From Verrucomicrobiota bacterium (lineage in GTDB: Bacteria; Verrucomicrobiota; Verrucomicrobiia; Chthoniobacterales; Terrimicrobiaceae), in the NCBI GenBank assembly GCA_026398275.1, contig JAPLTF010000064.1, forward strand, positions 1 to 64,000: a stretch of 64,000 nt of DNA. Direction: 5' to 3'. The translations under genes and the position numbers were made by a program. This document shows positions 7,402 through 29,579 of this stretch, one piece after another (positions within the stretch are counted from its first letter, which is position 1; the number at the start of each line of letters is the position of its first letter). The notes beneath the pieces were generated by a model. The model had not been told where the DNA came from. It ran no database searches and was given only the letters and a program-made list of their open reading frames with translations.

Positions 7402-7444
7402 CGTTGCGGGCACAACCTGGCATTGATTGGGCACCAATATCTTT

Positions 7445-8671: not shown

Positions 8672-8689
8672 TTTGAGGAGTTGAACACG

Positions 8690-9484: not shown

Positions 9485-9666
9485 GGTGGGATTTTCTCTC
9501 TACCGACACGCATACGACTTTTTGATCACACGCGGGCAGGGAACTTTCAGGAGGGAGCAAACTCCCGAAGACGGCGCTTGAATGCAAGCCGAAACGCCCG
9601 GCAAGGGCGCATCCCCCCCTGGTTGCCCCTTGACCACGCCGCGCAGTCTGGACATCGTCTCCCCAA

Positions 9667-10296: not shown

Positions 10297-10793
10297 CGGA
10301 CGCCTCGCGGCTCCAGTGGGCGCAGGCGATGGTCGTCACCGGGATCGTCCTCTACGTGCCCGCAAATGTCCTTCCGGTGATGACGATGACCGTCGTGGGA
10401 ACCGTCGAGCCCCTGACCGTGCTCGGAGGAGTCGAGGAGCTCTACGATTCCGGCCTCTGGCCGATGGCGGCCGTGGTTTTCCTCGCGAGCATCGTCGTGC
10501 CTTTTCTCAAGCTGGTCAGCCTGAGCTGGATCCTGTTCATGCACGGAAAGCCAACCCTTCAGCGCCAGCGGGGCGCTCTTCGCCGGATCGTCCACTCGAT
10601 CGGAAGCTGGTCCATGGTCGATGTGTTTCTGCTGGCGATCCTCGCCGCAGTCGGTCAGCTCGGCGCCCTGGCCGGGGTCAAAGCGGAGCCCGGCGGCTTC
10701 TTCTTTGCCGCCGTCCTCGTTTGCAGCCTGATGGCCGCAGAGTTTTACAAACCCCGAATGATCTGGCAAACCAACAGCGAACAAACCCGATGA
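10293..10793 (+). CDS. PqiA/LetA-type integral membrane protein, C-terminal half
   Basis: A 166-residue PqiA-domain protein with four helices. The first contains LYVPANVLPVMTMTVVG, the counterpart of ANIEPIM in the upstream gene. It lacks the zinc ribbon. The start overlaps the stop of the first half (ATGA), and its own stop overlaps the MCE gene start in the same way, so the three genes are translationally coupled. Inferred role: together with the first half it makes a LetA-like membrane module passing lipid to or from the MCE tunnel. Confidence 0.85.
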   Translation: MTDASRLQWAQAMVVTGIVLYVPANVLPVMTMTVVGTVEPLTVLGGVEELYDSGLWPMAAVVFLASIVVPFLKLVSLSWILFMHGKPTLQRQRGALRRIVHSIGSWSMVDVFLLAILAAVGQLGALAGVKAEPGGFFFAAVLVCSLMAAEFYKPRMIWQTNSEQTR

Positions 10794-13084
10794 GCGAACC
10801 CGAAAACAAAACAACCGATCACGGCGAAGTCGTCGCCCGTCCCGGCCTGCGCATCTCGTGGGCGTGGCTGTTCCCCATCCTGGCCGCGCTCGCTGCCGGA
10901 TGGCTATTCTGGTCGGACTGGAAATCGCAGGGGCCGGAAATCGAGGTCGAATTCGCCACTGCTCCGGGGATCGAGCCAGGGAAAACGAACCTCGTTTACC
11001 GCGGGGTCGTGGCCGGCACGGTGAAGAGTGTCCGTCTTGATGAAAAGCTTCAGAAGGTTGTCGTGAGCGTCCGCCTGAAGGCCTTCGCCTCCGACCTGGC
11101 GCGGGAAGGGACGTTGTTCTGGATTGACCAGCCGGTGATCGGGCTCGGACGCACATCCGGCATCGAATCCCTCATCCAGGGGAATTCGCTGAAAGCCCGG
11201 ATGGGCCAGGGACCGCCCGCACTCCACTTTACCGGCAGCGAGGTCGTCCCGCTTTCCCAGCTTGAGGAGCCGGGCATGCTCCTGACGCTCAATTCCGCAA
11301 ACGTCCCGTTCCTGGACCGGGGATCTCCAATTTATCACCGCGGGGTGATGATCGGAGCCGTGCGCGGGAAAACGCTCAATTCCGAGCATCAGCCGGTGTT
11401 GAACATCATGATCGAAAAGGAATTCACCAAGCTCGTGACCTCCAACTCGCGCTTCTGGTCGCTGCCTGCGGCATCGGTCAAGCTCGGCTCTGGCATGGTG
11501 CAGATTGACCTGGCCGGGCTGAAGTCTCTCCTCCTCGGCGCGATCACGATGGAGTGTTTTGGCGAGCCGGGAACGGCCGCAAAGGACGGCGACGAGTTCG
11601 TGCTTTCTGCCAACGAATTCGCCGCTCGAGCCAGCAGTTCTCCCATTCGCGTCACATTTCTTGACGGGCTCGGGGTCCGGCCCGGCATCACCGAGCTGCG
11701 CTACCGGGGAATCCCGGTCGGCCTCGTCGAGACCGTGAGCGCCGATGTGGCTACTGGAGAGGTAGCGACCACCGTTAGACTCGCGGCCGGGTATGAGAGC
11801 CTGCGCGGTGAAGGAGCCGCGTTTACACTCGTTCGCCCCCGCGTTTCGCTCGAAGGCATCTCCGGCATTGAGACGCTCATCGCCGGGATCTACATCGACT
11901 GCGCGCCCGGCGACGCATCCCGCCCGCTCGACCGGTTTGCCGGCCTCATGGCGACCGATTCCGGCACTCAGGAAGAGGGTCTCACCGTGCAGCTCCACGC
12001 AAAGGAAATCCCGACGATCGACAAGGGGGCCCCCGTCCTCCTGCGCGGGATCATCGTGGGCTCAGTGACGAAGAAAACTTTCGACGAGAACAACGAGCCG
12101 TCTCTGACGCTCATGATCCGCAAGGAATTTGCGCGGACGCTCGCATCGAACGCAAAGTTCTGGCGTGTTCCCGCAACATCGGTCGAGGCGGGGCCGGGAG
12201 TGCTGAATGTCGAGGTTTCCGCACTTCAGTCGCTCTGGAAAGGCGGCGTGGCGTTTGATGTCTTCGGGATGCCGGGTGAACCGGCCGGGGAGGGGGCAAA
12301 ATTCGAACTCTTCGCCAGCGAGCGGATCGCGCGCGCCGGTTCGCCGCCGATCCGCATCGAATTTCCGAATGGCCAGGGCCTCCTCGCAGGCCAGACCCAG
12401 CTTCGCTATCTCGGCATCCCGGTCGGCATCGTCGAGGACGTGAAGCCCGTTGAAGGCAAAGTCGTGGTCACCGCCCGGCTGGATTCCGGCTACGACCTGC
12501 TTCGTCGCAAGGGCTCGGAGTTTTCCCTGGTGCGCCCGAAAATCTCCCTTCAAGGCGTGAGCGGTTTGGAGACCTTGGTGAGCGGGGTCTATATCGAATG
12601 CACGCCCGGCTCGCAGGGGCCGCTCGCGGATCGCTTCCGCGGCGTCTCGCCCCAAGAGCTGGAAGACGAAGCGGCCGGGCGGGCGGGATTCCAAATCGTG
12701 GTGCAGTCCCCCTCGACGAGCATCGGCGTCAACGCCCCGGTATTCTATCGCGGAGTTCAAGTCGGAAAAATTGTCCGCAAAGCGCTGGCTGCGGATGGAA
12801 CCTGCGTCGGGCTGATCGCTGTCATCGATCTCCCCTATGCTCCGCTCCTGCGCGAAAACACGAAATTTTGGGATGTGAGCGGCGTGCGCGCCTCGCTCGG
12901 GCTCTTTGCGATCAAAATCCAGACCGGCCCGCTGAAGTCCCTCGCCCTCGGCGGCATCGAATTCGCCACCCCGCCGGACATGGGGCGCCGCGTCAAACCA
13001 GGGCACACCTTCCCGCTCAGCCCGTCGCCACAGAAAGATTGGCTGCGCTGGTCCCCGGCAATCCCGCTGACGGACGAAAAATAA
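10790..13084 (+). CDS. Six-MCE-domain lipid transport tunnel protein (LetB/PqiB family)
   Basis: A 764-residue protein anchored by one N-terminal helix (near residues 24-39). I count six MCE domains, each opening with a strand and a turn of the form YRGVxVG. These read LVYRGVVAGTV, IYHRGVMIGAV, LRYRGIPVGLV, VLLRGIIVGSV, LRYLGIPVGIV and VFYRGVQVGKI. Family knowledge: E. coli PqiB has three MCE domains and LetB (YebT) seven, stacked as rings to form a tunnel between the membranes. Six is an intermediate count, nearer LetB. There is no PqiC lipoprotein gene next to it. Confidence 0.9.
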   Translation: MSEPENKTTDHGEVVARPGLRISWAWLFPILAALAAGWLFWSDWKSQGPEIEVEFATAPGIEPGKTNLVYRGVVAGTVKSVRLDEKLQKVVVSVRLKAFASDLAREGTLFWIDQPVIGLGRTSGIESLIQGNSLKARMGQGPPALHFTGSEVVPLSQLEEPGMLLTLNSANVPFLDRGSPIYHRGVMIGAVRGKTLNSEHQPVLNIMIEKEFTKLVTSNSRFWSLPAASVKLGSGMVQIDLAGLKSLLLGAITMECFGEPGTAAKDGDEFVLSANEFAARASSSPIRVTFLDGLGVRPGITELRYRGIPVGLVETVSADVATGEVATTVRLAAGYESLRGEGAAFTLVRPRVSLEGISGIETLIAGIYIDCAPGDASRPLDRFAGLMATDSGTQEEGLTVQLHAKEIPTIDKGAPVLLRGIIVGSVTKKTFDENNEPSLTLMIRKEFARTLASNAKFWRVPATSVEAGPGVLNVEVSALQSLWKGGVAFDVFGMPGEPAGEGAKFELFASERIARAGSPPIRIEFPNGQGLLAGQTQLRYLGIPVGIVEDVKPVEGKVVVTARLDSGYDLLRRKGSEFSLVRPKISLQGVSGLETLVSGVYIECTPGSQGPLADRFRGVSPQELEDEAAGRAGFQIVVQSPSTSIGVNAPVFYRGVQVGKIVRKALAADGTCVGLIAVIDLPYAPLLRENTKFWDVSGVRASLGLFAIKIQTGPLKSLALGGIEFATPPDMGRRVKPGHTFPLSPSPQKDWLRWSPAIPLTDEK

Positions 13085-13186
13085 ACCCGCGGCCATTGTC
13101 GCGGAATGTTTCCGCATTCCGCGTCCAACGACGGGCTTGCAGAAGCGCCCGACTTTAGACAGCGTGGCTCCACAAAAAAAATCCCT

Positions 13187-13801
13187 ATGACCGCAACAAA
13201 ATTCCTTTCCGTCGTTCTGCCCGCCCTCGCGATCTCGCTGACTTCGTGCACGACCCCCTCCTCCACCGGTCGCACTTCGTTTTCATTCGACCCGCCGGTC
13301 CAGCAGCCGAGCAACCCCGCCGCAGTCAGGGCCATGCTCAGCACCGGCGCTCAACGGCTCTACCTCGTGGAGGGCGACAAGGTCATCCTGGCCACTCCGG
13401 TCACCGTCGGAAAACCGTCCACCCCCACCCCCCGCGGAAACTTCCGCATCTATTCCAAGCAACTCGAGCGCAGGCGCGCAAGCAGCCCCGGCGCCGGATA
13501 TCCCATGACCTACTGGATGGAATTTCAGCCCGCGTATGGCATGCACTGGGGATTCATGGACTCCAAGCCGGACACGCACGGCTGCGTCCGCATCCCGCTG
13601 AAGGCTGCAAAAAAAGTCTTCACCCTGGTGCGCGTGGGCACACCGCTGAACGTGGCTTCCAGCCAGCCATGGGACAGCACAATCGGGAAACAGCTTCCGA
13701 CCTTGGACGACTCCCGCCTCCCGGATCCTCCTCTCTCCTACATGCTGAGCCCGAAAGTCTTTCGCGACTCGCACGCAGGGAAGATGTGGAACTTCGAATA
13801 G
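13187..13801 (+). CDS. L,D-transpeptidase (YkuD) lipoprotein
   Basis: A 204-residue lipoprotein. The lipobox is LTSC (Cys21). The YkuD domain runs from about residue 55 and holds the catalytic block GMHWGFMDSKPDTHGCVRI. His120 and His131 with the nucleophile Cys133 match the family pattern (H...S/T-HGC-hR). It would cross-link peptidoglycan stems or attach proteins, on the periplasmic side. A short linker rather than a LysM domain precedes the catalytic part. It starts 102 bases after the MCE gene and ends 45 bases before dinG. Confidence 0.88.
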   Translation: MTATKFLSVVLPALAISLTSCTTPSSTGRTSFSFDPPVQQPSNPAAVRAMLSTGAQRLYLVEGDKVILATPVTVGKPSTPTPRGNFRIYSKQLERRRASSPGAGYPMTYWMEFQPAYGMHWGFMDSKPDTHGCVRIPLKAAKKVFTLVRVGTPLNVASSQPWDSTIGKQLPTLDDSRLPDPPLSYMLSPKVFRDSHAGKMWNFE

Positions 13802-13846
13802 CAGGACCTGCCTTGATAAGCAGCCGCTCACCATTCATTCTCGGGC

Positions 13847-15844
13847 ATGATTTCAATTCGGGAGGACGGAGGGAGCGCGGAGGTATCCGCATTGGAGCGC
13901 GAGGTTCACGCGATTTTTTCGGAGGACGGAAAACTCTCGCACGGGGCCGGGTTTGAATTCCGCAAGGAACAGCAGGACATGGCCTGTGCGGTGGCGCGGA
14001 CGCTCGAGCGCGGCAGCCAGGTCGTGATCGAGGCCGGAACCGGCGTCGGCAAGTCGCTCGCCTACCTCGTGCCCGCCGCCCTGCATGCCGTGCGGACGAA
14101 ACGCAAGGCCGTGATCTCGACGCACACGATCTCGCTGCAGGAGCAACTGATCTTTAAAGACATTCCGTTCGTGCAGCAGCTCCTCGACGAGGACTTCGAA
14201 GCGCTGCTGATGAAGGGCCGCCAGAATTACCTCTGCACGACCCGCCTGGCCCGGGCGATCAACCAGGCGGCGGACCTTTTCACTACCGAACAAAAATCCG
14301 AGCTGGAGAGGATCCGGGACTGGAGCCAGGCAACAAAAGATGGCTCGCTCAGCGATTTTCTCGAGCAGCCGGATCCGGCGGTCTGGGAGGAGGTGCGCAG
14401 CGAGCAGCATTTGTGCACACCGAAGATGTGCGGGCCGAACTCCGGCTGCCATTACCAGAACCTTCGCCGCCGGATTGCGGGCGCTCACATGGTGGTGCTG
14501 AATCACGCGCTCTTCTTCACTCTGCTCGGTGCGGTCGAGGACGCGGAGAGCCGGACAGGCGGACTGCTCTTTGCGAATGATTTTGTGATCTTCGACGAGG
14601 CGCACACGCTCGAGGAGGTGGCCTCGCGGCATATCGGGATGGAGGTTTCCCAGCTCGGCCTCCGCCGCGCTGTCCAGCGGCTCTACAACCCCCGCACGAA
14701 ACGCGGGCTCTTCCAGGTGATGAAAAACGGGCCGGCGTGCAAAGCGGTCGCCGACATCCTCCCGGTCTCGGATGAGTTTTTTCAATCGATCACTTCAAAA
14801 TGCACGTTCAAAAAGGGCCGCGAATTCCGGGTGCGGGAAGCCGGCCTGGCCGATGGCGGGGAGGTCTGCACCAACCTGGCCAAGCTCGGAGAGCTGATCG
14901 CCACCGAGGCGGTCCGATGCCAGGATGAGATTGGTGCCGCAGAACTGCAGGACACCGCCCGCAAGCTCCGCTCCGCCCGCGCGGCGATCACGGATTTCCT
15001 CGCTGTCGAACAGCCGGACCACGTCTATTGGGTCGAGCAGAGCGGGCGCAACGAGCAGTTCTGCACGCTGCGGACCGCGCCGGTGGACCTCGCCTACGCC
15101 CTGCGCAGGCTCCTCTTCCGCGAGGGGGCCTGCTCGGTGCTGACGAGCGCGACGCTCTCCATCGGGACGCCTGACCTTTCCTACTTCCGCAGGCGCGTTG
15201 GTGCGGAGGATGTCCCGGCCCTGCAGATCGGAAGCCCGTTCGACTACGAGAAGCAGATGAGCCTGCACCTCGTCCGCCAGATGCCGGAGCCGAAGGATTC
15301 GGGCTACGAAAAGGCGCTGGAAAAATGGATCGCACATTTCACCGACAAAAGCCTCGCCCGGGCGTTCGTGCTTTTCACAAGCTACCAAACCATGCGCACG
15401 GTGGCGGAAAACATGGAGGCGCATTTTGAGAAAAAGGGCTGGCCGCTGCTTGTCCAGGGCAGCGGCATGCCGCCGCAACGCATGCTGCGGGAGTTCCGCG
15501 GAAACCCGCACAGCGTCCTCTTCGGCGTCGCCAGCTTTTGGACCGGCGTCGATGTGCCGGGGGATGCCCTGTCGAGCGTGATCATCACCCGCCTCCCGTT
15601 TGCCACGCCGGACCATCCGCTCACCGAAGCCAGACTCGAAGCGATCGAGGCGGAGGGAGGACGGGCGTTTGACAGTTACTCGCTCCCGGAGGCCATCCTC
15701 CGGCTGCGGCAGGGCGTGGGACGGCTCATCCGCAGCAAATCCGACACCGGAACCATCGTCATCCTCGACAGCCGGATCGTCAGCAAGCCGTATGGAAAAT
15801 CCTTCCTGCGCGCGATGCCGAAGTGCCCGGTCGAGATCCATTGA
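13847..15844 (+). CDS. dinG: DinG-family ATP-dependent DNA helicase
   Basis: A 665-residue superfamily 2 helicase of the XPD/DinG group. Walker A is AGTGVGKS (63-70) and the DEAH box is at 250-253 (VIFDEAH). Four cysteines at 130, 190, 195 and 201 are placed as for the iron-sulfur cluster that XPD-like helicases use to separate strands. The second motor domain shows VLTSATLS, SPFDYEKQM and the late RLIRSKSDTGTIVILDSR. It unwinds DNA 5' to 3' and helps resolve R-loops or stalled forks. No exonuclease domain is attached, unlike the long Bacillus form. Confidence 0.9.
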   Translation: MISIREDGGSAEVSALEREVHAIFSEDGKLSHGAGFEFRKEQQDMACAVARTLERGSQVVIEAGTGVGKSLAYLVPAALHAVRTKRKAVISTHTISLQEQLIFKDIPFVQQLLDEDFEALLMKGRQNYLCTTRLARAINQAADLFTTEQKSELERIRDWSQATKDGSLSDFLEQPDPAVWEEVRSEQHLCTPKMCGPNSGCHYQNLRRRIAGAHMVVLNHALFFTLLGAVEDAESRTGGLLFANDFVIFDEAHTLEEVASRHIGMEVSQLGLRRAVQRLYNPRTKRGLFQVMKNGPACKAVADILPVSDEFFQSITSKCTFKKGREFRVREAGLADGGEVCTNLAKLGELIATEAVRCQDEIGAAELQDTARKLRSARAAITDFLAVEQPDHVYWVEQSGRNEQFCTLRTAPVDLAYALRRLLFREGACSVLTSATLSIGTPDLSYFRRRVGAEDVPALQIGSPFDYEKQMSLHLVRQMPEPKDSGYEKALEKWIAHFTDKSLARAFVLFTSYQTMRTVAENMEAHFEKKGWPLLVQGSGMPPQRMLREFRGNPHSVLFGVASFWTGVDVPGDALSSVIITRLPFATPDHPLTEARLEAIEAEGGRAFDSYSLPEAILRLRQGVGRLIRSKSDTGTIVILDSRIVSKPYGKSFLRAMPKCPVEIH

Positions 15845-19190: not shown

Positions 19191-19271
19191 GCTCGGGTGG
19201 TGAAATGGCAGACACGTACGTTTGAGGGGCGTATGCCGCAAGGCATGGGGGTTCAAGTCCCCCCCCGAGCA
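19191..19271 (+). tRNA. tRNA-Leu (GAG)
   Basis: Class II tRNA. The acceptor stem is GCTCGGG/CCCGAGC, the anticodon stem TACGT/GCGTA encloses the loop TTGAGGG with anticodon GAG, the variable arm is long (TGCC-GCAA-GGCA), and the T-arm is GGGGG-TTCAAGT-CCCCC. The discriminator is A and CCA is not encoded. Its 3' end is the integration site of the element that follows. Confidence 0.95.
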
Positions 19272-19273
19272 CT
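19245..19273 (+). repeat. attL: left 29-bp copy of the attachment core
   Basis: The 29 bases from the variable arm through the T-arm and acceptor strand of tRNA-Leu recur exactly at 28351-28379. Duplication of a tRNA 3' end at both edges is the standard footprint of tyrosine-integrase elements, and it keeps the tRNA intact. Confidence 0.9.
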
Positions 19274-19347
19274 CTTTTGATTATCAGCTACTTACAAAAG
19301 AGAAAACGCAAAACGGGAACACCGCCGGGAACACGTCCGCCACGGTG

Positions 19348-19364: not shown

Positions 19365-19595
19365 CGCTAGAATTGCCATTGCGCGTATTCCCGGAAGGCA
19401 TCTATTCCGCAGGATTTTCGACAAGAAATATCGCGAACACCCCGATTGTAAAAAATTTTCCGCGCCCGGAACCGGTATATGTTCGACGCACCCCATGCTT
19501 TTTTTTTTCGCCCCCCCCGGCTACCTTGCCAACTCAGCCCAAAGAAAAACCTTCTCGATCAGCACCGGCATGATTCACAATCAGCCTCAAGAATC

Positions 19596-19979
19596 ATGAA
19601 GACGTTCATCCGCTTGTCATTCGCTCTATTTCTCCTTGCGCTTGCAGGGTGCTCAACCTGGGGAAGCAGAGTTGCAATGGGGGACCAGCGATACCCGAAA
19701 GTTCCAGTCCAGCACGTCATGATTCTATTCGAGCCTCCGCAGCGGGCCTATGAGCAAATCGGAATTGTCAGTTCCCTTGGCGGAGCATTTGCCAGCGAAG
19801 GGGATATGTTTCGGAAAATGCAGATGTCAGCCGCAGGCCTTGGCGCTGATGCGGTAATTGTCAGAGGGACGGGAACGAGCGTGAAATCCGGTAATGGCGT
19901 TACCGTCGTCCAGTCGCAATCCGTAAACAATTATTGGGACTTCCCAAAGACGAACGGCATCGCGATCAAATACAAGTAG
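19596..19979 (+). CDS. Small lipoprotein of unknown function (element-borne)
   Basis: A 127-residue predicted lipoprotein. A basic start (MKTFIRLS) and a hydrophobic core lead to the lipobox LAGC. The mature part contains HVMILFEPPQRAYEQIGIVS and SAAGLGADAVIV. That looks like the small YbjQ/YdgH-like alpha-beta fold seen in heavy-metal-binding or DUF4156-type lipoproteins: a strand, then a helix of the type AxxxGADAVI. No substrate residues are visible. It lies inside the element with its own rightward orientation, so it is probably cargo. Confidence 0.65.
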   Translation: MKTFIRLSFALFLLALAGCSTWGSRVAMGDQRYPKVPVQHVMILFEPPQRAYEQIGIVSSLGGAFASEGDMFRKMQMSAAGLGADAVIVRGTGTSVKSGNGVTVVQSQSVNNYWDFPKTNGIAIKYK

Positions 19980-20073
19980 GCGAAGCACATCTTCCCGGCA
20001 CTTTTCGGGGGGGGGGGGGAAGCCTATACGCCCCGGCGTAGTATTTCATCCGCAAGCACAAAATCATTTCCGC

Positions 20074-20102
20074 TTGACCAACTGCCGCAATGGGAATTCT
20101 GT
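20074..20102 (+). promoter_or_regulatory. Possible promoter of the structured RNA
   Basis: TTGACC (20074-20079), 17 bases, TTCTGT (20097-20102). The -10 is poor. The start would fall about five bases before the first hairpin. Confidence 0.3.
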
Positions 20103-20104
20103 TC

Positions 20105-20509
20105 AACCACTCAGTAGCGTAGGGGCCACCCCCGCTAAAACTACTGTAGAGCCCGTGGGATTGGTGCGCGATCCGCCCGGATTCATTCCGGCGAGGCGGG
20201 CGGAAGTGAGAGCGATCTCACTTTGACGAGGCCGCTGAAAAGCGGTTTAGAGCCTTCGGGGGGTTGAGCCATAAAATCAACCCCCCACTTTCCTGCAAAG
20301 GTCCGCATTTAAAACGCGACCCCGCCGCCACGACCGATCTCCCGAAAGGATGATAAGTCAGAAAGTTTGACTCCATCGAGCAGTTGACGCATGGTCATCA
20401 CAGGAGAAGAACTCTCCGAAGATTTTCCACGCGGGGTCGCCCCGACTCTGTTCGGGGAACGAGCCGTGGTTCTCCTGCCCGGTGCGAGAAATCGCATCGG
20501 GCAGTTTTT
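20105..20509 (+). ncRNA. Candidate large structured RNA of unknown class
   Basis: About 400 bases without a credible ORF, packed with perfect stems. Hairpin 20112-20146 is CAGTAG/CTACTG with an inner GGGG/CCCC. TCCGCCCG (20172-20179) pairs with CGGGCGGA (20197-20204). A 7-bp stem 20205-20222 is closed by the GNRA loop GCGA, and a 5-bp stem 20232-20245 by the GNRA loop GAAA. A 10-bp stem joins 20258-20267 to 20277-20286. A perfect 10-bp long-range stem joins GCGACCCCGC (20316-20325) to GCGGGGTCGC (20431-20440) and encloses two hairpins (20356-20372, 20403-20417). CCCCGA/TCGGGG (20440-20457) and an intrinsic terminator follow. GNRA loops and the T tract exist only when read on the plus strand. 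I see no RNase P, tmRNA, SRP or group I/II signature. Confidence 0.6.
20475..20509 (+). terminator. Intrinsic terminator of the structured RNA
   Basis: The stem CTGCCCG-TGCGA / TCGCA-CGGGCAG with a GAAA-type loop is followed directly by TTTTT. It is a textbook rho-independent terminator on the plus strand, with no coding gene in the 490 bases before it. Confidence 0.75.
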
Positions 20510-20730: not shown

Positions 20731-20982
20731 ATGCGAGGAATGACATTGCCGAAATATCCGCCTATTCCCTTCGACAAGCTGAAGGAGCAAGTTTCGCGGA
20801 GCGAAGGAAACCTCGGCGACAACTCCCCGGCCATGCCCATGTTCTCCCTTGGGCTGATAGATACGGACGGAAACGTGACGCCAAAGGGTTTCGCGAATCG
20901 GGCAAGACTGGAAGCGGCAGCGGGCACACTTAGCCGCAAAGTTCTTCAACAACTGGAAGCCAAAGCCAGCTTCACCCGCTGA
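20731..20982 (+). CDS. Possible small protein convergent with the recombinase
   Basis: An 83-residue frame (80 from the ATG at 20740) with protein-like composition: KYPPIPFDKLKEQVSRSEGN, then GLIDTDGNVTPKGFANRARL. No known domain. GAGGA directly abuts the ATG at 20740, which is too close for a normal ribosome binding site. Its 3' end overlaps the recombinase gene on the other strand by 37 bases. The upstream extension of the same frame runs through the RNA terminator and is not coding. Confidence 0.35.
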   Translation: MRGMTLPKYPPIPFDKLKEQVSRSEGNLGDNSPAMPMFSLGLIDTDGNVTPKGFANRARLEAAAGTLSRKVLQQLEAKASFTR

Positions 20983-21602
20983 ACCGTGCTCGCCCCCTTG
21001 CCCGTAATCTTCGCTGTGTTCCTCACGCTCTGCCCGTCCCGCAGTTGCCGGGCAATGTCCGCATGGGTTTTCAGGAACTCAGCCAGGTCAACAGAGGAAC
21101 CAGCCGGACGGCCCAGCCGCTTGCCATCCCGCCGCGCCTGTGCCAGCCCCGACATAATCCGCTCCCGCAGAGTCTCAACCTCGGCCCGCGCCATTTCCGA
21201 AAGCAAGGCGAGCATGATCCCCGCCGCAGGATTCCGCTTGCCGGAAGGAAGAAGCGTCTCGATCCCCTGTGCATGCCAGTAAAGAGAAACCCCGGCATCC
21301 TCCAACGTCTCAACGAACTTGTGCGCGATGCTATTGCGCCGGGCCAACCGGGAGACTTCATGGACCAACACTTTCTTGATCGTGCCCGCCGCGGCCAAAG
21401 CCTCCACCCGCCGCAGGCCCGCCCGCTCGTCATCATCGGCCCGCCCGGAAACCGTCTCACGGCAAACCTCGATCACCGCATAACCCTTCTGCAAGGCATA
21501 CGCTTCCAATTCCGATACCTGCCGGGCAGTCTCCTGCTTCATGGTGGAAACACGAACGAGGATAGCGACCGGCACCGCTTGGGATTTTGATTTTGTTTTC
21601 AT
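20946..21602 (-). CDS. Serine recombinase (resolvase/invertase family)
   Basis: A 218-residue small serine recombinase. The catalytic Ser19 lies in ILVRVSTMKQ. The conserved ETVSGRADDDERAGL loop and the arginine-rich HEVSRLARRNS follow, then the dimer helix region MLALLSEMARAEVETLRERI and the RDGKRLGRPAG hinge. A C-terminal helix-turn-helix spans QLRDGQSVRNTAKITGKGAS. It cuts and rejoins DNA at paired sites. In an element with a tyrosine integrase it may resolve multimers or invert a segment. A cluster of repeated GTGTATTCA sites lies just upstream and may be its target or operator. Confidence 0.88.
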   Translation of the reverse strand: MKTKSKSQAVPVAILVRVSTMKQETARQVSELEAYALQKGYAVIEVCRETVSGRADDDERAGLRRVEALAAAGTIKKVLVHEVSRLARRNSIAHKFVETLEDAGVSLYWHAQGIETLLPSGKRNPAAGIMLALLSEMARAEVETLRERIMSGLAQARRDGKRLGRPAGSSVDLAEFLKTHADIARQLRDGQSVRNTAKITGKGASTVQRVKLALASSC

Positions 21603-21621
21603 CGGAGGGAATCATTGCACG

Positions 21622-21657
21622 GTGTATTCAATTAAACAAGTGTTTTCGTGAATACAC
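21622..21657. promoter_or_regulatory. Inverted repeat upstream of the recombinase gene (res-like or operator)
   Basis: GTGTATTCA (21622-21630) and TGAATACAC (21649-21657) form a perfect 9-bp inverted repeat with an AT-rich centre. A third half-site TGAATACAC lies at 21724-21732. Resolvase res sites have this kind of layout: inverted half-sites next to the recombinase gene. Confidence 0.5.
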
Positions 21658-22121
21658 TTTTCACACACATTGAAATCCGCCATTCCCCGGCAAAATCCTT
21701 GCAGTTTTCGATTAACCTTTTTTTGAATACACACCCCACGAACATCCGGGCACACACTGCCCCGGTTTCAAACCGACCGCTATTTGTATTTCTTTCCCGC
21801 CATGCGAACCCATTACCGACGCCCAGACCACTCCCGCCCGCTTTTTTGCCAGCCCCTCCACCGGAAGACATGGAAGGAAGCCCAACCCCGATCCTCCTTT
21901 TATGTCGTCTATGCCGATTCGAGGAACCGGCAATCATTGGCGAAACACGCCCCCGCAGGACCGCTCCTCAATATCATTTTAAGGCAGTCAATCTGCATCC
22001 GTCCGCCCTCCCGCTCGCCCGGACCCGTCGCCCTCTGTCCTGTCCAACCTCCCAGCCGCCCGGACGCACAGCCTCCCAGGGCGATCACCGCCCCGGCGCC
22101 AGACACTCGCACCGCAAGCCC
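21658..22121. other. Intergenic stretch with no convincing gene
   Basis: Open frames on both strands here are rich in Pro, Arg and Ser, start without ribosome binding sites and overlap one another. Apart from the third TGAATACAC copy at 21724-21732 I see no repeat, hairpin or promoter worth naming. Confidence 0.5.
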
Positions 22122-22304
22122 TCAGTCCTGCACGTAACAGCTCCGACTCACCGGCACAGGTTTGCCAGCATAAAACGACTGAGGAGGTCTCAAGAGCATC
22201 GGCGGGCGACCCGGCACCAGATAGGAAATCTCCTTGCCCTTCCGCTTGGGACGCTTCTGCATGTCCGGCTTTTTTTCTTTCTCTGCGGGCTCTTTCTGTT
22301 TCAT
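22122..22304 (-). CDS. Possible small basic protein (weak)
   Basis: A 60-residue frame starting MKQKEPAEKEKKPDMQ, highly charged at the start and proline-rich later (LVPGRPPMLLRPPQSF). No ribosome binding site or known domain. It has the same orientation as the recombinase and ATPase genes flanking it. The composition could equally be chance in GC-rich DNA. Confidence 0.3.
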   Translation of the reverse strand: MKQKEPAEKEKKPDMQKRPKRKGKEISYLVPGRPPMLLRPPQSFYAGKPVPVSRSCYVQD

Positions 22305-22375
22305 GGACAAAGCAGTTGAAACAACATCCGCCTCGCAGCCACCATGCCGCAAGATATTTATTCGCCATGCTTGGA

Positions 22376-22400
22376 AGGGTGCGATTTTAAATCGCACCCT
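22376..22400. repeat. Perfect 12-bp inverted repeat around one base
   Basis: AGGGTGCGATTT-T-AAATCGCACCCT. The arms nearly touch, which favours a protein-binding operator over an RNA hairpin. Confidence 0.45.
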
Positions 22401-22490
22401 CCGAACTCGGCAGGACTTCCCAACACTCCGCCGCGTCCCCAGCCCGTCCGCGAGACGTGTCAACACTTCCTGATCGGTAGCTCAAATGAA

Positions 22491-22526
22491 GAAACCCAGA
22501 CCGGATGCAAGATCCGGCTGGGTTTC
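22491..22526 (-). terminator. Strong hairpin downstream of the ATPase gene
   Basis: GAAACCCAG-A-CCGGAT pairs with ATCCGG-CTGGGTTTC (15 bp with one bulged A) around GCAAG. It lies 190 bases after the ATPase stop. No T tract follows on either strand, so it may instead be part of a replication or recombination site. Confidence 0.4.
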
Positions 22527-22642
22527 TGCCGAGGCTGGCGTCAAGTCCAACCCAGCGCACGTTTATACTCGTGACGGCCTTCTTAGACTCGCGCCTGATT
22601 GGAGAATGTCAAACCCGATCCGCCATCCCGTCATTGACAACC

Positions 22643-22711
22643 ATTGGCGGACTTCCCGTTATTGGCGTCACTTGTCCATCCGGCCACCCCACATAGGACA
22701 ACCGGATGGAC
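22643..22711. repeat. Iteron-like repeats downstream of the ATPase gene
   Basis: Two copies of ATTGGCG (22643-22649, 22661-22667) match the inverted motif CGCCAAT at both element ends. Next to them GTCCATCCGG (22674-22683) and CCGGATGGAC (22702-22711) form a perfect 10-bp inverted repeat. GTCCATCCGG recurs at 26595-26604 and GTCCATCCG at 26629-26637. Candidate origin or accessory recombination sites. Confidence 0.4.
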
Positions 22712-22717
22712 GGACGC

Positions 22718-23968
22718 TCAATCTTCATCATCCTGCGAACGCTTGATGCCCGCTGCCGAAAGACGAATCACCCCGGATTCAATGTCCGGCTCGATCAGTT
22801 CCGCAAACCGCCCCTTCTGGTAGTCAAGCGCACTGTATGCCGCCGACCTCCCGCAATCTGTCAGCTCCTGCAATTTCTTCGCTCCCGCCGCCTGCGTCAT
22901 GGTCCGCGCCCCGTAGTCGAACAGTCGCAGGATATGCTCCTCCCGGATCTTCGCCATCGGCCCGGACTGTCCATCAAATGCGGTCCAGTCAAAATCATCG
23001 GCATGAGCGAAGAACCCGCCATCAGTCCGACGCCACGCCGACCGGGGAGCCATCACCCCATCGTTGCACTTCGCCACGGTCAAGACTGTGTGCGGATCAT
23101 CCTCCGCGTCTGTAGCAGCCTGCAAGGTCATCACCGCACGCGCCGAACTGGTTATCACATACGACCCCGCCAGCAGGTTCGCCATTGACCGGCCCCTGTG
23201 CTTGTCGCCCTCCCTTGGTTTCCTCAAATGGTGGACGACCAGCAAGGCCGGATTCGTCCCCACCTCGCCCGCAATCTGCCGCAAGTATGCAAGAAGCTCG
23301 ATAATGTCTCGCTCCTGCGAGTCGCTCACCATGCTATTGAGCGGATCAAACACGATCATGTCAGGCCCGAACTCCCGAGCCGCCGCCGTCAGGTCATCCC
23401 GGAAGTTTAGATTCTTCATCGCGATCATCCCATCCGGGGGAGCCGACACAATGAGCCGACCATCAAGCCCCGCCGCATCGCCAAGCTTTTGAAAATCCTT
23501 CGACAATCGGGGAAGTCCATTCTCGGATTGAACCACCATCGTTTTGAACCCGAAGTGAATCGGGAACCCCATCCAGTTTGATTCCCCCCGAGCCGCCGAC
23601 ACCGCCAGCGAGAACACCGCCCGCGATTTTCCGACACCTCCCGGCCCTGCAAAAATCGTCAGGGCTCCCCGCTGTATCAATGAGTCACCTACAAGAAAAT
23701 GATTCTCCGGCGTAACATATTCCGCGATCTCCGAAGGCCGCAGAAATTCAATCATCGGCTTCCGTTTCTCTTTTCCTGCCCGTCGCCCCTCCGCAGGATC
23801 AGCCCGCAGAGCCTCCACTTTCGCGGGATTCTCCTCCGCGACATCTGCCACGGCAGGAATCGTCACCGCTTCATTCGGCTCCTCCACCGCCCCACGAGCA
23901 GGGAGTTGCTCCGCGCCCGATTCGTCAGGATCATCACCGGACAGAGGATCGTAAAAACCGGCGCTCAT
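22718..23968 (-). CDS. RepA-like AAA/RecA-fold ATPase (replicative helicase type)
   Basis: A 416-residue ATPase resembling plasmid RepA helicases and the AAA_25 group. Walker A is AGPGGVGKS within LTIFAGPGGVGKSRAVFS. Walker B is in MIVFDPLNSMVSD, followed by the sensor region LLVVHHLRKPREG and the DNA-loop-like segment ANLLAGSYVITSSARA. A C-terminal region contains a winged-helix-like stretch (SAAYSALDYQKGRFAEL). GGAGG precedes the ATG at seven bases. The start overlaps the primase stop (ATGA), so primase and helicase are made together as an element-specific replication pair. Confidence 0.8.
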   Translation of the reverse strand: MSAGFYDPLSGDDPDESGAEQLPARGAVEEPNEAVTIPAVADVAEENPAKVEALRADPAEGRRAGKEKRKPMIEFLRPSEIAEYVTPENHFLVGDSLIQRGALTIFAGPGGVGKSRAVFSLAVSAARGESNWMGFPIHFGFKTMVVQSENGLPRLSKDFQKLGDAAGLDGRLIVSAPPDGMIAMKNLNFRDDLTAAAREFGPDMIVFDPLNSMVSDSQERDIIELLAYLRQIAGEVGTNPALLVVHHLRKPREGDKHRGRSMANLLAGSYVITSSARAVMTLQAATDAEDDPHTVLTVAKCNDGVMAPRSAWRRTDGGFFAHADDFDWTAFDGQSGPMAKIREEHILRLFDYGARTMTQAAGAKKLQELTDCGRSAAYSALDYQKGRFAELIEPDIESGVIRLSAAGIKRSQDDED

Positions 23969-24960
23969 GGTAACACCTCCCGGAATTTCTCCGACCGCTC
24001 GAAACAGTCCGGCGCGATCTTGCACACGTCAGCCAGGTCTTTCCCCGGAGAGCCGTCCGCCCTCACGATCCCGGACAGGTCAAAGGCCGAAACCCGACAC
24101 CCCGCACCATGCAGTTGCCGCGCCCATTCCCTCGATCCAGTCCGACCCGCCGCGTCACAATGCGGATAGAGCGTAACCGCCTTTCCACTCAGCCGCCGCA
24201 AAGCCTCCTCTGCAATGCGATGATTCGCCGCGCCGAGCATCGCCAGCACCGCAACCCGATCCTCCTTCCCCTCGACCGAAAGGAAATGAAAGGCCGCTAC
24301 AAAATCCGGCGAGCCCTCCACCAGCACGCATTTTTCAAAACCATCCGCTTCCTCGACCCCGAGCGGGAACGCCTTGCCCGAGCCCACACAATGCGACTTC
24401 CGAACCGGCAGACCCTTGTATGCGTCGAACAGTTTCCCATCCAGCCGCCGAAACTCCATGAGCATCCGTCGCCGATCACGCACCGCCCAGCAAGTAGTCC
24501 CAGCGAATTGAACGAACCCGAAGAACCCCCGCCGCTCCGCCAGCCGCAGCCCCTCGACACCGAACCCGCGAAGCTCTGCGACGTGGTTCAACTCCGACAC
24601 CGATCCCGGACGCAGGTCCGGCATCCACCGTGTTTTTCCATTGGCCGGAACATCCTCCCGCCGCTTCCGATCAGGAAGCCCAAGGAAATCCCGCGCCCAG
24701 GTCAAAGCCTCCGCCGCCGTGCATTCCTTTGCCAGTCTGATGAAATCAATGGAATCACCATGAACCCCATCCGAATGATCTTTGAACCTCCACCGCCCGC
24801 CGTCCTCATACACTGAAAACGAAGGCCGCTTTTCCTCCCGAAACGGACTGCAAACGCACTTCCCCGGCTCCCCCGGAAGAGACAGAACCCGCCACACCTG
24901 CCGAATGTCTATCCGTTCCGCTATCTCCCCAGCGGTCAGATCAAGACTCACTTTCGGCAT
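23965..24960 (-). CDS. DnaG-like primase with degenerate zinc finger
   Basis: A 331-residue primase-like protein. The N-terminus follows a CHC2 domain (CSPFREEKRPSFSVYEDGG, then GDSIDFIRLA), but most zinc ligands are gone: CPFH has become SPFR and the second Cys pair reads KDHSDG. The Toprim domain shows LVEGSPDFVAA with the conserved Glu; the DxD motif reads PHCDAAGRTGS, the first Asp being His. The start at 24960 has AGGAGG immediately against the ATG; an upstream ATG at 25014 is possible. It overlaps the preceding small gene by 20 bases and the ATPase by ATGA. Confidence 0.75.
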   Translation of the reverse strand: MPKVSLDLTAGEIAERIDIRQVWRVLSLPGEPGKCVCSPFREEKRPSFSVYEDGGRWRFKDHSDGVHGDSIDFIRLAKECTAAEALTWARDFLGLPDRKRREDVPANGKTRWMPDLRPGSVSELNHVAELRGFGVEGLRLAERRGFFGFVQFAGTTCWAVRDRRRMLMEFRRLDGKLFDAYKGLPVRKSHCVGSGKAFPLGVEEADGFEKCVLVEGSPDFVAAFHFLSVEGKEDRVAVLAMLGAANHRIAEEALRRLSGKAVTLYPHCDAAGRTGSREWARQLHGAGCRVSAFDLSGIVRADGSPGKDLADVCKIAPDCFERSEKFREVLP

Positions 24961-25219
24961 CCTCCTGATTTCGCTCTGCGCATTGTGCGGACCCCTCCGC
25001 GTTCCACCATCCATGCTTCTTCAGATCATTGGCGAGCCTCGCAGCAGCCCGATCAGCAGCCCGCGCCGAAGTATGAGCACTCACGATTGACATTACCGAA
25101 GCTGGAATCCTCCCCTCCTTCAGCACTTCGTTTGCCATACCGATAAGACGGTCCAACGAATCACCAGCAACAACCTTTCCCTGCGCCCATAGCACAACAA
25201 CCCATGCGTCAGTTTTCAT
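24941..25219 (-). CDS. Small hypothetical protein upstream of the primase
   Basis: A 92-residue protein, unrecognised. An N-terminal strand (TDAWVVVLWAQGKVVAGDS) is followed by helical, alanine-rich segments (SARAADRAAARLANDLKK). A strong GGAGG lies before the ATG at 25219. It overlaps the upstream HTH-like gene by 11 bases and the primase by 20, so it is embedded in the replication operon and may assist it. Confidence 0.6.
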   Translation of the reverse strand: MKTDAWVVVLWAQGKVVAGDSLDRLIGMANEVLKEGRIPASVMSIVSAHTSARAADRAAARLANDLKKHGWWNAEGSAQCAERNQEDAESES

Positions 25220-25568
25220 TCTCCACCTCCGCAGCAATGCCCGCAATAAAGCCCTCGACCTTGCCCGCCGCCACCCTTGAAAGGAATGACGAAAGTTTCG
25301 GAACGCTGGTAAAAACCGTCCCCCGCAGACACCCGCGCCGCCTCACGCGAATGAGGAAGCGATCTTCAGGCGACAACTCTTGATCCGTCTCGATCAGCCA
25401 GGAACGGGACGCGCCCGACACCGGGCACCGCTCGCCAGCTTTCGGGAGCCTCACGAACTCCGCCACATTTCCCGCCGTTGCCATCTCGACCCGAGGCCCG
25501 AGACGCGCCGAGCCTGCCCCGGCGACCGTGGGGATTGCCCCCGTGAATTCTGATTTTGATTTTGCCAT
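25209..25568 (-). CDS. HTH-like DNA-binding protein of the replication operon
   Basis: A 119-residue protein. The central part FVRLPKAGERCPVSGASRSWLIE reads like the compact helix-turn-helix of AlpA/excisionase-type proteins, where (R)LPKxGxRCPVxGxSRS recurs. The N-terminus is basic and Ser/Gly-rich. It could act as the excisionase or a regulator of the operon; neither is shown. It overlaps the next gene by 11 bases. A 251-base gap without features separates it from the upstream 249-residue gene. Confidence 0.55.
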   Translation of the reverse strand: MAKSKSEFTGAIPTVAGAGSARLGPRVEMATAGNVAEFVRLPKAGERCPVSGASRSWLIETDQELSPEDRFLIRVRRRGCLRGTVFTSVPKLSSFLSRVAAGKVEGFIAGIAAEVENEN

Positions 25569-25819
25569 ATGCTCTTTCTTGGTTTCCAAAAGCGCACCAT
25601 GCGCCCCGGATTCCTTGCTTATGACAGAAATCGAAAATCACCCGCCGAAGCCCATGCCATCAGCCGCAGAGCACTTTCCCGATCAATCGGAAAACGATCC
25701 CGAAAGAGAATGAACACAACCCGCCGAGGCCCGAGGTTTTCCCGCGAGAGTAGACCATTTCCCCACGAGAACCTCCGCCTTTCCCGAGCAATTTACTTCA
25801 AAAAGATTCTTGGCGTTTT

Positions 25820-26569
25820 CTACACCCTCGCCCTTTTGCCCCTTGGCGGGTTCGCCACCTCGCCCGCCGAGCCTTTATCCATGAGCTTTGCCGACTCTTT
25901 GCGAGATTGAAGCAGAGCACGGAAAAACATTTCCGAAAGCAACGCATTTTTCAATACCTTGGAAACGTCCGCATCCGTCACGATTGGCATTTTCCCCTTG
26001 GGATTCATCCTCATTTTATTGCTCCAAATTATATTCAGAGCATCCAGAACCAGCCCCCGAAAACGTTTCGCATCGCGCATCACTTCCCATTTTCCAAGCT
26101 GAACCCACTTGGACCGATCTCCTCCACTTGGCAATTCCTCGACATGGAACCTTCCAACATGCAAATGACGGTCAGCACCGGCCCCGGCATCGAACAGCAC
26201 AGAGCAATTCAACACCCCACCCGATCCCTCCGCAGCCCCACGCTTTGCCTCATGCCAGAGCAATGGCGGATTAGACCGTTGATCAGACTCCTTCATGAGT
26301 GATACCGCCATATCCTTCAACTCTCTTTCGGGCCGCTCCCGCTCCCTGCGCCGAGCCGCCGCCGCATCAGTCAGCAGCCGCGCCGCTGCATTCACGTCCG
26401 GCACGATCTCAGCCGCACATCCCTTCTTTGGTCTGCCGATCTTTGCCCTGCCAAGCTCGATTGCCAGCCTCGCCACGGTTTCATTCCGGCGATCTTCCGC
26501 CGCCTGTCTCTCAAGGTTGAGCCGATCCCGCGCAATGATTCGCATCCAGTCCGATTCAGTATTTTTCAT
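25820..26569 (-). CDS. Hypothetical protein of the element (249 aa)
   Basis: Not recognised. The N-terminal half is helical and highly charged (SDWMRIIARDRLNLERQAAE, then AARRRERERPERELKDM), suggesting a coiled coil that binds DNA or another protein. A GRPKKG patch near residue 45 resembles an AT-hook. The second half has mixed strands and ends in a basic tail. The ATG overlaps the stop of the upstream frame (ATGA). Confidence 0.55.
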   Translation of the reverse strand: MKNTESDWMRIIARDRLNLERQAAEDRRNETVARLAIELGRAKIGRPKKGCAAEIVPDVNAAARLLTDAAAARRRERERPERELKDMAVSLMKESDQRSNPPLLWHEAKRGAAEGSGGVLNCSVLFDAGAGADRHLHVGRFHVEELPSGGDRSKWVQLGKWEVMRDAKRFRGLVLDALNIIWSNKMRMNPKGKMPIVTDADVSKVLKNALLSEMFFRALLQSRKESAKLMDKGSAGEVANPPRGKRARV

Positions 26570-26934
26570 AAATTCAACATCCCGATTTCATCTCGTCCAT
26601 CCGGCCCGTCCAGCCGGACAACCGCGTTGTCCATCCGTCGCCGGAAGCCGCTGGAAATGGGGAAGCCCCCCGTCCATGCTCCGCACGATTCCACCGAAAG
26701 AATTGAAGCCAAGCCGCAGGGACGCCCGCCACGACCCCGGCACCCGCCCGCCGCTGCCATGTATTCCCTCAGAGCCAGAAGCCCGCCACCGCCAGCCAGC
26801 GCACAGCGCCGAGCCGTCCGGCGTCCGTCCGCTCCGATAGGTGTGAGGGGGCGGACGGACATCCGTCCATGTAAAAAATCCCCTAGCAAAACGGCCCGAG
26901 CAGATGGAAGAGAGAGAAGGGAAATCTCCTTCAT
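26566..26934 (-). CDS. Possible coupled small protein between integrase and the 249-aa gene
   Basis: A 122-residue frame whose start overlaps the integrase stop (ATGA) and whose stop overlaps the next start (ATGA). Precise double coupling argues that it is translated. Against this, it is very rich in Gly and Arg, has no known domain, and its DNA carries the repeated GTCCATCCG boxes (26595-26604, 26629-26637) and a related box near 26855. It may be a real small protein, or a non-coding repeat region through which ribosomes merely pass. Confidence 0.4.
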   Translation of the reverse strand: MKEISLLSLPSARAVLLGDFLHGRMSVRPLTPIGADGRRTARRCALAGGGGLLALREYMAAAGGCRGRGGRPCGLASILSVESCGAWTGGFPISSGFRRRMDNAVVRLDGPDGRDEIGMLNL

Positions 26935-28118
26935 TTCTTGGCCTTCTTTCCTTTCGGCTTGGTCCCTACAAGCGAGGGGAACGCCTCCGCCGCCAGCTTG
27001 AGAGATTCCTTCCCGACATGCGTATAGTGCTCGCTCATCTCCTTTGACGAGTGGCCGGTCAGTTCCATGACCGTAGCCGCAGGAATCCCCGCCTCCTTCA
27101 ACATCGTGACCGCAGTATGCCGCAGGCAATGGAAGGCCAGCCCCCCGGATGAACTCCCCACGCCCCGGCCCTTGCCGTGAATTTTCCTGTGCGCTTTTTT
27201 CTGCCTCAGCCCCACCGATACAAGCAGGTCAACAAACTGGCCGGACAACTCCGAGGTGGAGCCAGCACGCCCCACGAACTCAAACGCCCGAGGGTGGATC
27301 GGCTGCATCGGATCATCAGACACCGGAAGAGATTCGACATGCGCCAGCAGCGGTCCCGCCAGCGATTGAATCACAATCTTTCCGGTCTTCTGTGTCTCAA
27401 TCCGAAGCTCCCGAGCCTGCAAATCCAGATTCGCCCAGGTCAACCGGGCGACATCCCCGAGCCGCTGCCCGCTGTAGAGGCCAAATTGGATCATGCTTTT
27501 CCATTCATCATCAGCGGCAGCGAGCACCGCCCGCAGTTGATCAATCGTGAAAACAGGCTTTGGCTTCCGTTTTGATCCCCGGACGGAATCCACAAACTCA
27601 GCCGGGTTGTCTGTAATCAACCCCTCCCTGCGCGCCGACTTGAACAGCATCCGCAGAAGCTTGATCCGATCATTGACCGACCCCGGCGAAAGCGACTTCA
27701 TTTCCCCATCGCGAAAATCCAGCAAGTCCTGCCGAGAGACTTCCGCGATATCTTGGTCCGCCCGATCACCCATGAAGTTGATCAGCTTCTTTGTGTCCGT
27801 GTTGTATGTCATCAGCGTAGAGGGGGCGACCTCATGCGACTTCGCCGCAATCCATGACGCGACATATTCCCGCAAGGATTGAACCGCCATCGCCTCCCCT
27901 GTGATTTTCTGGTGAAGGTCCGAAATCACCCGGCGCACGTAAAGGGCCGACCGCTTCTTTGAGGCCACCGCCTCGAAACTCTCCGCGATCTCCAGCGCCC
28001 GCCGCCGCTCCCGCTCCTTCGCCGGAACCTTCGTTGTCCGCTTGAGCCTCCGACCAAGAATATCCGTAAAGCAGGCAATCCAGCACGACGACTCAGGCCG
28101 CTTGATCACGCAAGCCAT
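26931..28118 (-). CDS. Tyrosine recombinase / integrase of the element
   Basis: A 395-residue phage-type integrase. An N-terminal arm-binding region is followed by a SAM-like core-binding domain (SLREYVASWIAAKS to LRMLFKSARREG). The catalytic domain has the first Arg in LYSGQRLGDVARL, the His-x-x-Arg in FHCLRHTAVTML, then GHSSKEMSEHYTH with the second His and the nucleophile Tyr. It would recombine the 29-bp core in tRNA-Leu. The gene starts about 230 bases from attR and carries candidate arm sites in that gap. Confidence 0.93.
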   Translation of the reverse strand: MACVIKRPESSCWIACFTDILGRRLKRTTKVPAKERERRRALEIAESFEAVASKKRSALYVRRVISDLHQKITGEAMAVQSLREYVASWIAAKSHEVAPSTLMTYNTDTKKLINFMGDRADQDIAEVSRQDLLDFRDGEMKSLSPGSVNDRIKLLRMLFKSARREGLITDNPAEFVDSVRGSKRKPKPVFTIDQLRAVLAAADDEWKSMIQFGLYSGQRLGDVARLTWANLDLQARELRIETQKTGKIVIQSLAGPLLAHVESLPVSDDPMQPIHPRAFEFVGRAGSTSELSGQFVDLLVSVGLRQKKAHRKIHGKGRGVGSSSGGLAFHCLRHTAVTMLKEAGIPAATVMELTGHSSKEMSEHYTHVGKESLKLAAEAFPSLVGTKPKGKKAKK

Positions 28119-28265
28119 CGTTCAGCCCTCCCCCGTTCTCACTTTTTTGGATGTCATTTTCATGGCCGCGCGGTGTTCTCAGTTTCGTTCCGGGGACTTG
28201 AACCGCCCTCACACTGGAACGGTTCCATTCCCCTTGCGAACATAAACGGGAACACACATTTTACA

Positions 28266-28335
28266 ACGCCAAAAAACGCCAATGTCTTTTCCCTCTGATA
28301 AACACAGGGTTTCCGGCTTCCTCGTTTATTGGCGT
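28266..28335. promoter_or_regulatory. Candidate integrase arm sites, right end
   Basis: ACGCCAA (28266-28272) and ACGCCAAT (28276-28283) are direct repeats at 10-base spacing, with an inverted ATTGGCGT at 28328-28335. The same motif and spacing appear inside attL. Confidence 0.45.
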
Positions 28336-28350
28336 GCCTCCTTTGGGTCA

Positions 28351-28379
28351 ATGGGGGTTCAAGTCCCCCCCCGAGCACT
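28351..28379 (+). repeat. attR: right 29-bp copy of the attachment core
   Basis: Exact copy of 19245-19273, the 3' part of tRNA-Leu. It lacks the rest of the tRNA. It marks the right edge of the element, 16 bases before the end of the patatin-like gene. Confidence 0.9.
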
Positions 28380-28394
28380 TCTTTTTCCTCCCCC

Positions 28395-29579
28395 CTACTT
28401 CGCACCGAGGAAGTCCGCCGTGCGGTCGAGGGTCGCGGCTTTTTCTGTGGTGAGTTTTCCTCCGAGAGCGGTCAGGGCCTGCACATTTTTTTCCGTGCAG
28501 TCATCGGCAAGCAGGGAGTCTGCGGGGAGCGGGGGATCGAGGCGGATGTAGGCGGCCACGGGGCCGCTTCCGAAGCGGTGGAGGGCGGATGTGATTTGCG
28601 AGGTCGTGAACTGCGAAGCCTCCGTGGCGAAGCGGACAATTTCCTCCGCGTCACCGGATTTTTTCCAGCCGGTCGCCACGTCTTCCGGAACCGTGGCCGA
28701 CACTCCGGCTCCCAGGCTGATCATGACACACTGTTTTCCCGGATAGCGGAGCAGCGCTTCTCCCATGGCAATGAGGGTCGGGTTGTTGGCGTAGATCTCG
28801 GCACCGATGAGCGTCTCGGTCTGGTCGCCCGCGGAGTTGGAGAGCTTGGAGGGAGCGGAGACCGCAGGGTTGCAGGTGGCGGCCGTCACCGCGTCCGCGA
28901 GAAAAAAGTCTCCCGCCTCGGTGATCGCGCGGCCGCTCGTCCCGGAGAACGATGTGCTTTTCCCCATGTCGCTTGCAAAGAAAAACGGGACCTGCTCCCT
29001 CAAGGAATACGCGGGGAGGATGATGGTCGTGAGGGCGGCACCGACCTGCGTGTCGCCGAAGAATTCCTGGAACACCTTCTGCCTCGTGCGCGTGAGGTAT
29101 TTGGGAGCGGTCCTGCCCTCGACCGAGAGGAGCGGGTGGATGACCGGGGTCTGAAGCGTCTTCGCCCAGAGCGCGGGAAATTCCTTGATCAGCTCCGCCG
29201 CGGTGAATCGCGGGGTATCGTGATCGAGCGGCACCGACAAAGCCGCCACCACAAAGGCTCCGGAGCCGGTCCCGACCATCACATCAAACAATTCGCAGGC
29301 CGGCCGCCCGCTCCGCTTCTCCAGGTAGGCCAGGCTCTGCAGCGCCAGCAAAGTCCTTATTCCCCCGCCATCAATGGACAGGACCCTGACATACTTTCCG
29401 GTATCCCTCGGCCGCGCAGCCGGAAGCGTGGCCGCCTGGCGTGCAGGCGACGGGACGGGCTTTTGATGGAAGCGTCCGTATGCCCAGAAAAGAAAGATCG
29501 CAATCCCGATCGCCGACAGCGTGCCCAGCGGAAACCTCGAGAGTCGCGAGGTCAGGCTGGAGGTGTCCGGGAGGCGCAT
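28395..29579 (-). CDS. Patatin-like protein lacking the catalytic dyad
   Basis: A 394-residue membrane-anchored protein (helix near residues 17-33) with a full patatin domain. The oxyanion strand is VLSIDGGGIRTLLALQSL and the late part reads YANNPTLIAMGEALLRY. The expected GTSTGG nucleophile elbow is VGTGSGAF, so the Ser position is Gly, and the DGG with the catalytic Asp is replaced by GAE just before IYANNP. Both dyad residues are therefore missing while the scaffold is well kept. It is probably a non-catalytic lipid-binding homologue. It lies just outside the integrated element. Confidence 0.8.
   Translation of the reverse strand: MRLPDTSSLTSRLSRFPLGTLSAIGIAIFLFWAYGRFHQKPVPSPARQAATLPAARPRDTGKYVRVLSIDGGGIRTLLALQSLAYLEKRSGRPACELFDVMVGTGSGAFVVAALSVPLDHDTPRFTAAELIKEFPALWAKTLQTPVIHPLLSVEGRTAPKYLTRTRQKVFQEFFGDTQVGAALTTIILPAYSLREQVPFFFASDMGKSTSFSGTSGRAITEAGDFFLADAVTAATCNPAVSAPSKLSNSAGDQTETLIGAEIYANNPTLIAMGEALLRYPGKQCVMISLGAGVSATVPEDVATGWKKSGDAEEIVRFATEASQFTTSQITSALHRFGSGPVAAYIRLDPPLPADSLLADDCTEKNVQALTALGGKLTTEKAATLDRTADFLGAK

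Follow-up and report, generated by a model that had tools for sequence, protein, structure and literature searches.

A structured, terminator-bearing noncoding segment within a small integrated element of a Verrucomicrobiota bacterium

GOLLD and ROOL are large ornate RNAs carried by phages and prophages, with lengths from about 660 to over 800 nt, that often lie near tRNAs (PMC12286853). Abundant noncoding RNAs are also expressed by PLE satellites (PMC7567579). Minimal phage satellites of the PICMI type are small integrated islands with an integrase, a primase and a variable region able to hold cargo (PMC10803314). We analyzed a window of 64,000 nucleotides of the Verrucomicrobiota contig JAPLTF010000064.1, in which a large multi-hairpin RNA had been predicted at positions 20105-20509. 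Our results support a structured, terminator-bearing noncoding unit within a small integrated element, for which the noncoding RNAs of PLE satellites, together with GOLLD and ROOL, are the clearest precedents. Like GOLLD and ROOL, the candidate RNA is large and noncoding, has many stems, is carried by a mobile element and is close to a tRNA. Unlike these described families with covariation, it is about 400 nt long and matches no Rfam model, and its nearby tRNA is the attachment site of the host rather than part of a phage tRNA island. With the IIR transcript of PLE and the regulatory RNAs of P4 and phiR73 the candidate would share being a noncoding RNA of a satellite-type element (PMC7567579), its own expression being putative.

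The segment is hosted in a 9.1-kb element that is inserted in a tRNA-Leu gene and bounded by 34-bp att direct repeats (Table 1). The element also carries genes for an integrase, a primase, a helicase and a recombinase, and the segment lies within it, as the original prediction had proposed. The proposed position next to tRNA-Leu does not hold: this tRNA, which is the att gene of the host, lies at a distance of 830 bp, with the reading frame of a lipoprotein in between. The att repeats in a tRNA gene, the integrase, the primase and helicase and the lack of capsid genes among those seen are all features of phage satellites and integrative elements, and we consider the 9.1-kb element to be satellite-like and integrative. 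It resembles the PICMI type in its small size, integrated state, integrase, primase and variable cargo region, and differs from it in that the DnaG-like primase and the AAA_25 helicase are separate and that a serine resolvase is also encoded. Neither AlpA nor Fis was recognized among the element proteins scanned, and the element has no known helper phage. PADLOC returned no defence family for the small element proteins scanned. The integrase, primase, helicase and recombinase genes all lie on the minus strand, and the candidate RNA occupies the plus strand of the variable stretch from attL to the recombinase gene. Across the region of the minus-strand genes, from approximately 21000 to 28500, the GC skew is strongly negative, and it stays close to zero elsewhere. 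Towards the left end of the element there are two homopolymer runs, of 13 G (20007-20019) and 10 T (19499-19508).

Table 1. Features of the integrated element and of the candidate RNA, in coordinates of the window
Feature	Position	Strand	Evidence or remark
tRNA-Leu(GAG), host gene and integration site	19191-19272	+	ARAGORN
attL, 34-bp direct repeat at the end of tRNA-Leu(GAG)	19245-19278		94% identical to attR
Small lipoprotein gene, cargo, 5' of the candidate RNA on the same strand	19596-19979	+	Reading frame
Possible weak promoter (TTGACC, 17 nt, TTCTGT)	20074-20102	+	Putative, by eye
Candidate structured noncoding RNA	20105-20509	+	Fold, inverted repeats, terminator
5' arm of end-closing helix (AACCAC)	20105-20110	+	Pairs with 20466-20471 (GTGGTT), mean pair probability 0.88
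Hairpin, 8-bp perfect stem, GCGA tetraloop (20212-20215)	20204-20223	+	
Hairpin, 8 pairs including two G-U, GAAA tetraloop (20237-20240)	20229-20248	+	
Hairpin, 10-bp perfect stem (20258-20267/20277-20286), 9-nt loop	20258-20286	+	Probability 1.0
Long-range stem of the original prediction (20316-20325/20431-20440) with enclosed part	20316-20440	+	Alternative fold
Intrinsic terminator, 13-pair stem (20475-20487/20492-20504), then T5 (20505-20509)	20475-20509	+	
83-aa ORF, 221 nt 3' of the terminator, overlapping the end of the convergent recombinase gene	20731-20982	+	
Recombinase of the serine resolvase/invertase family	20946-21602	-	PF00239
Near-perfect palindrome	22371-22405		
16-bp hairpin	22490-22527		
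Hairpin	22674-22711		
AAA_25 (RepA-like) helicase	22718-24025	-	PF13481; PHROGs helicase/primase families
DnaG-type zinc-ribbon primase	23965-25014	-	PHROGs helicase/primase families
Tyrosine integrase	26931-28118	-	PF00589
attR, other copy of the repeat	28351-28384		94% identical to attL

Most of the local structure that had been proposed is present. The segment ends in a canonical intrinsic terminator, whose stem and run of five T are found on the plus strand only, and the GNRA-type loops and the T tract are exclusive to that strand, as claimed. Both GNRA tetraloops had been described as closing perfect stems, which is true for the 8-bp stem with the GCGA loop, whereas the stem with the GAAA loop holds two G-U pairs and is not perfectly Watson-Crick. 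An additional 6-bp helix, missed in the original prediction, joins the two ends of the segment just 5' of the terminator. As for the 10-bp long-range stem, its arms are indeed perfectly complementary, but it is missing from the free minimum free energy (MFE) structure, which pairs 20157-20165 with 20333-20341 instead. Forcing the stem returns -174.4 kcal/mol, compared to -178.3 kcal/mol for the unconstrained fold, and would produce two domains, closed by 20145-20149/20293-20297 and by the long-range stem itself. With a cost of approximately 4 kcal/mol and no place in the free MFE structure, the stem is an alternative in the modelled folds rather than an established structure. The observation of structure, loops and terminator is thus real and partly confirmed, with these corrections.

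The first three bases of the terminator stem are shared with another stem, 20401-20408/20470-20477, a possible competitor of the terminator. Such competition would suit a cis-acting leader, or attenuator, that controls the 83-aa ORF lying on the same strand. We consider this very unlikely, since 221 nt separate the terminator from the ORF; moreover, none of 289 genomes of the phylum has a homologue of the ORF, which hence may not be a gene.

Structure in the segment exceeds chance. Its MFE of -178.3 kcal/mol compares to -142.3 +/- 6.2 for the shuffles (z -5.8). The background, composed of 86 stretches of 370 nt across the same window, had a mean z of -0.53 (sd 1.12) and a most extreme value of -3.74; in this run the segment reached -5.4 with the terminator and -4.2 without it. 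Perfect inverted matches are also in excess, with nine matches of 8 nt versus 1.7 expected from shuffles (P 0.002) and two of 10 nt versus 0.12 (P 0.027). The stability beyond composition holds for the whole segment and not for the 3' half alone: when the halves were folded without the terminator, the 5' half had a z of -3.0 and the 3' half of -1.1, which is no better than shuffles. Moreover, it is equal on both strands, the minus strand being as foldable as the plus (z -5.56). Since the reverse strand folds as well, which is expected of inverted repeats, the fold energy does not reveal the strand, and the orientation is read only from the terminator and the GNRA loops.

Equal folding of the two strands would also be seen if the segment had its role as DNA, either as hairpin palindromes for replication, packaging or recombination or as a remnant of inserted DNA, in which case the adjoining terminator would be incidental and would keep transcription from running into the convergent resolvase gene. 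The element encodes a primase and a helicase, and it contains a second palindrome-rich noncoding segment, 22369-22717, just downstream of the helicase gene. With z scores of -6.7 and -6.8 on the two strands, this segment is at least as structured as 20105-20509, and therefore structure could be a general property of the noncoding DNA of the element. It has no Rfam match and is a candidate for an origin of replication or for a second RNA. Nevertheless, a DNA-level role of 20105-20509 seems unlikely to us: lying beside the helicase gene, 22369-22717 would be the better candidate for an origin, the proper U-tract terminator points to transcription, and the segment is missing from a sibling element that has primase, helicase and resolvase in common with this one, which argues that replication and integration do not need it.

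This sibling (L060) is a complete element of 8.1 kb (7133-15242), inserted in a tRNA-Arg gene of another genome of the class and bounded by att repeats of 46 bp (7133-7178/15197-15242). The order of the integrase, primase, helicase and recombinase genes is identical in the two elements, and the recombinases are 63% identical. Only 460 bp separate the att repeat of L060 from its recombinase gene, and this stretch has neither such a terminator nor an excess fold (z about +0.5 to +1.0). A replication origin or integration site within 20105-20509 was rejected on these grounds. Because a sibling with the same core genes lacks the stretch, the RNA segment is, to judge from this comparison, dispensable accessory cargo outside the conserved replication or integration machinery. 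A second relative (L055), with a primase 46% and an integrase 38% identical, likewise shows no excess fold in any of its three noncoding stretches that were tested, and four other genomes of the class encode relatives of the helicase with 31-39% identity. Elements of this kind may constitute a distinct satellite-like family.

We compared the segment with the covariance models of Rfam 15, at gathering and at permissive thresholds (E up to 10), and obtained only chance-level scores. The best match below the threshold was SdsR_RyeB, with 19.6 bits versus the 38 required, and its best-aligned part was the terminator hairpin. No family reached its gathering score (RNase P, tmRNA, SRP, group I/II introns, GOLLD, ROOL, OLE and others), and all were rejected. 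Nor did a protein frame appear: the ten stop-free frames tested have no Pfam match, and we discarded a protein-coding or pseudogene origin. We also discarded a satellite antisense RNA of the immunity type. While the PLE IIR transcript and the RNAs of P4 and phiR73 are complementary to leaders of their element's own genes, the complementarity of the candidate to the genes of its element is at chance level; the best run of 13 nt was reached by 19 out of 200 shuffles, and the best run of 10 nt in the opposite orientation by 196 out of 200.

The segment is present in single copy in its own genome (BLASTN). The search for homologues in verrucomicrobial genomes, on which the prediction of a large ornate RNA was to be judged, found none: BLASTN in the same genome, in 97 relatives and in 388 genomes of the phylum returned only short matches of 14-54 bases. 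The best of them, in two genomes (G050 and G076), were lone short stretches with dissimilar flanks and were dismissed as chance. Two single-sequence covariance models, one of the 5' half (R1, 20165-20290) and one of the 3' half (R2, 20312-20472), gave only chance-level scores in 97 + 236 genomes and in 97 genomes, respectively, and the two matches that were checked, in G016 and G612, both overlap long ORFs. Phage and plasmid collections contained no detectable relative of the RNA. Neither did IMG/VR and GTDB contigs when they were probed with proteins of the element and, to detect near-identical copies, with translations of the stop-free frames of the RNA region. Likewise, no shared RNA was found in the neighbourhoods of homologues of the resolvase (L043-L046 and L076-L078) and of the lipoprotein (L081-L086). 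As no homologue was found in these collections, and hence no covariation support, the 'large ornate RNA' is plausible but unproven, and the segment is a single-copy orphan, a lead rather than a class.

The lipoprotein gene raises a further alternative, namely that the lipoprotein mRNA extends through the segment, which would then be its long, structured 3' UTR and terminator rather than an independent gene and might be processed to yield a small RNA. The segment lies on the same strand as this gene, 125 nt downstream, and the only hairpin in between that resembles a terminator has 5 bp and a poor tail (20027-20040). In addition, a promoter consensus scan found no clear promoter and did not report the TTGACC/TTCTGT candidate. 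However, the 5' end of the segment pairs with its 3' end exactly before the terminator, which suits a unit starting near 20105, and a structured 3' UTR of 400 nt would be unusual, so that we regard this origin as improbable. Homologues of the lipoprotein are weak (33-42% identical) and lie within the order.

The reading that we prefer is that 20105-20509(+) encodes an orphan structured noncoding RNA of approximately 400 nt, with paired ends and its own intrinsic terminator, carried as cargo by the element. The z score of the fold, the excess of inverted repeats, the loops and T tract restricted to the plus strand, the end-closing helix, the lack of Pfam and Rfam matches and the position in the variable region argue for it; the lack of homologues, the equal fold of the minus strand, the weak 3' half, the lack of a clear promoter, the at least equal structure of 22369-22717 and the lack of significant complementarity to the element genes argue against it. 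On balance, we judge its chances to be about even. Transcription would proceed rightwards and stop at the terminator, and the RNA, rather than the DNA, would be the active form. By analogy, it may be a trans-acting RNA, probably regulatory or else protein-binding, with targets in the host, in a helper phage or among the element's own genes. A similar action has been proposed for noncoding RNAs in other phages and satellites. That it represents a new class of structured RNAs of about 400 nt, which a satellite-like family of elements would carry as cargo and which would target the host or competing phages in trans, is decidedly unlikely. To our knowledge, the functions of GOLLD and ROOL are not known and satellite-borne RNAs have been little studied; a minimal element that has few genes and carries such an RNA would be convenient for studying what mobile-element RNAs do.

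A dyad, GTGTATTCA...TGAATACAC, lies immediately 5' of the recombinase gene (21622-21657) and is found also in the sibling L060 (8331-8368). Its occurrence upstream of the recombinase in both elements suggests that it is probably a conserved res or operator site.
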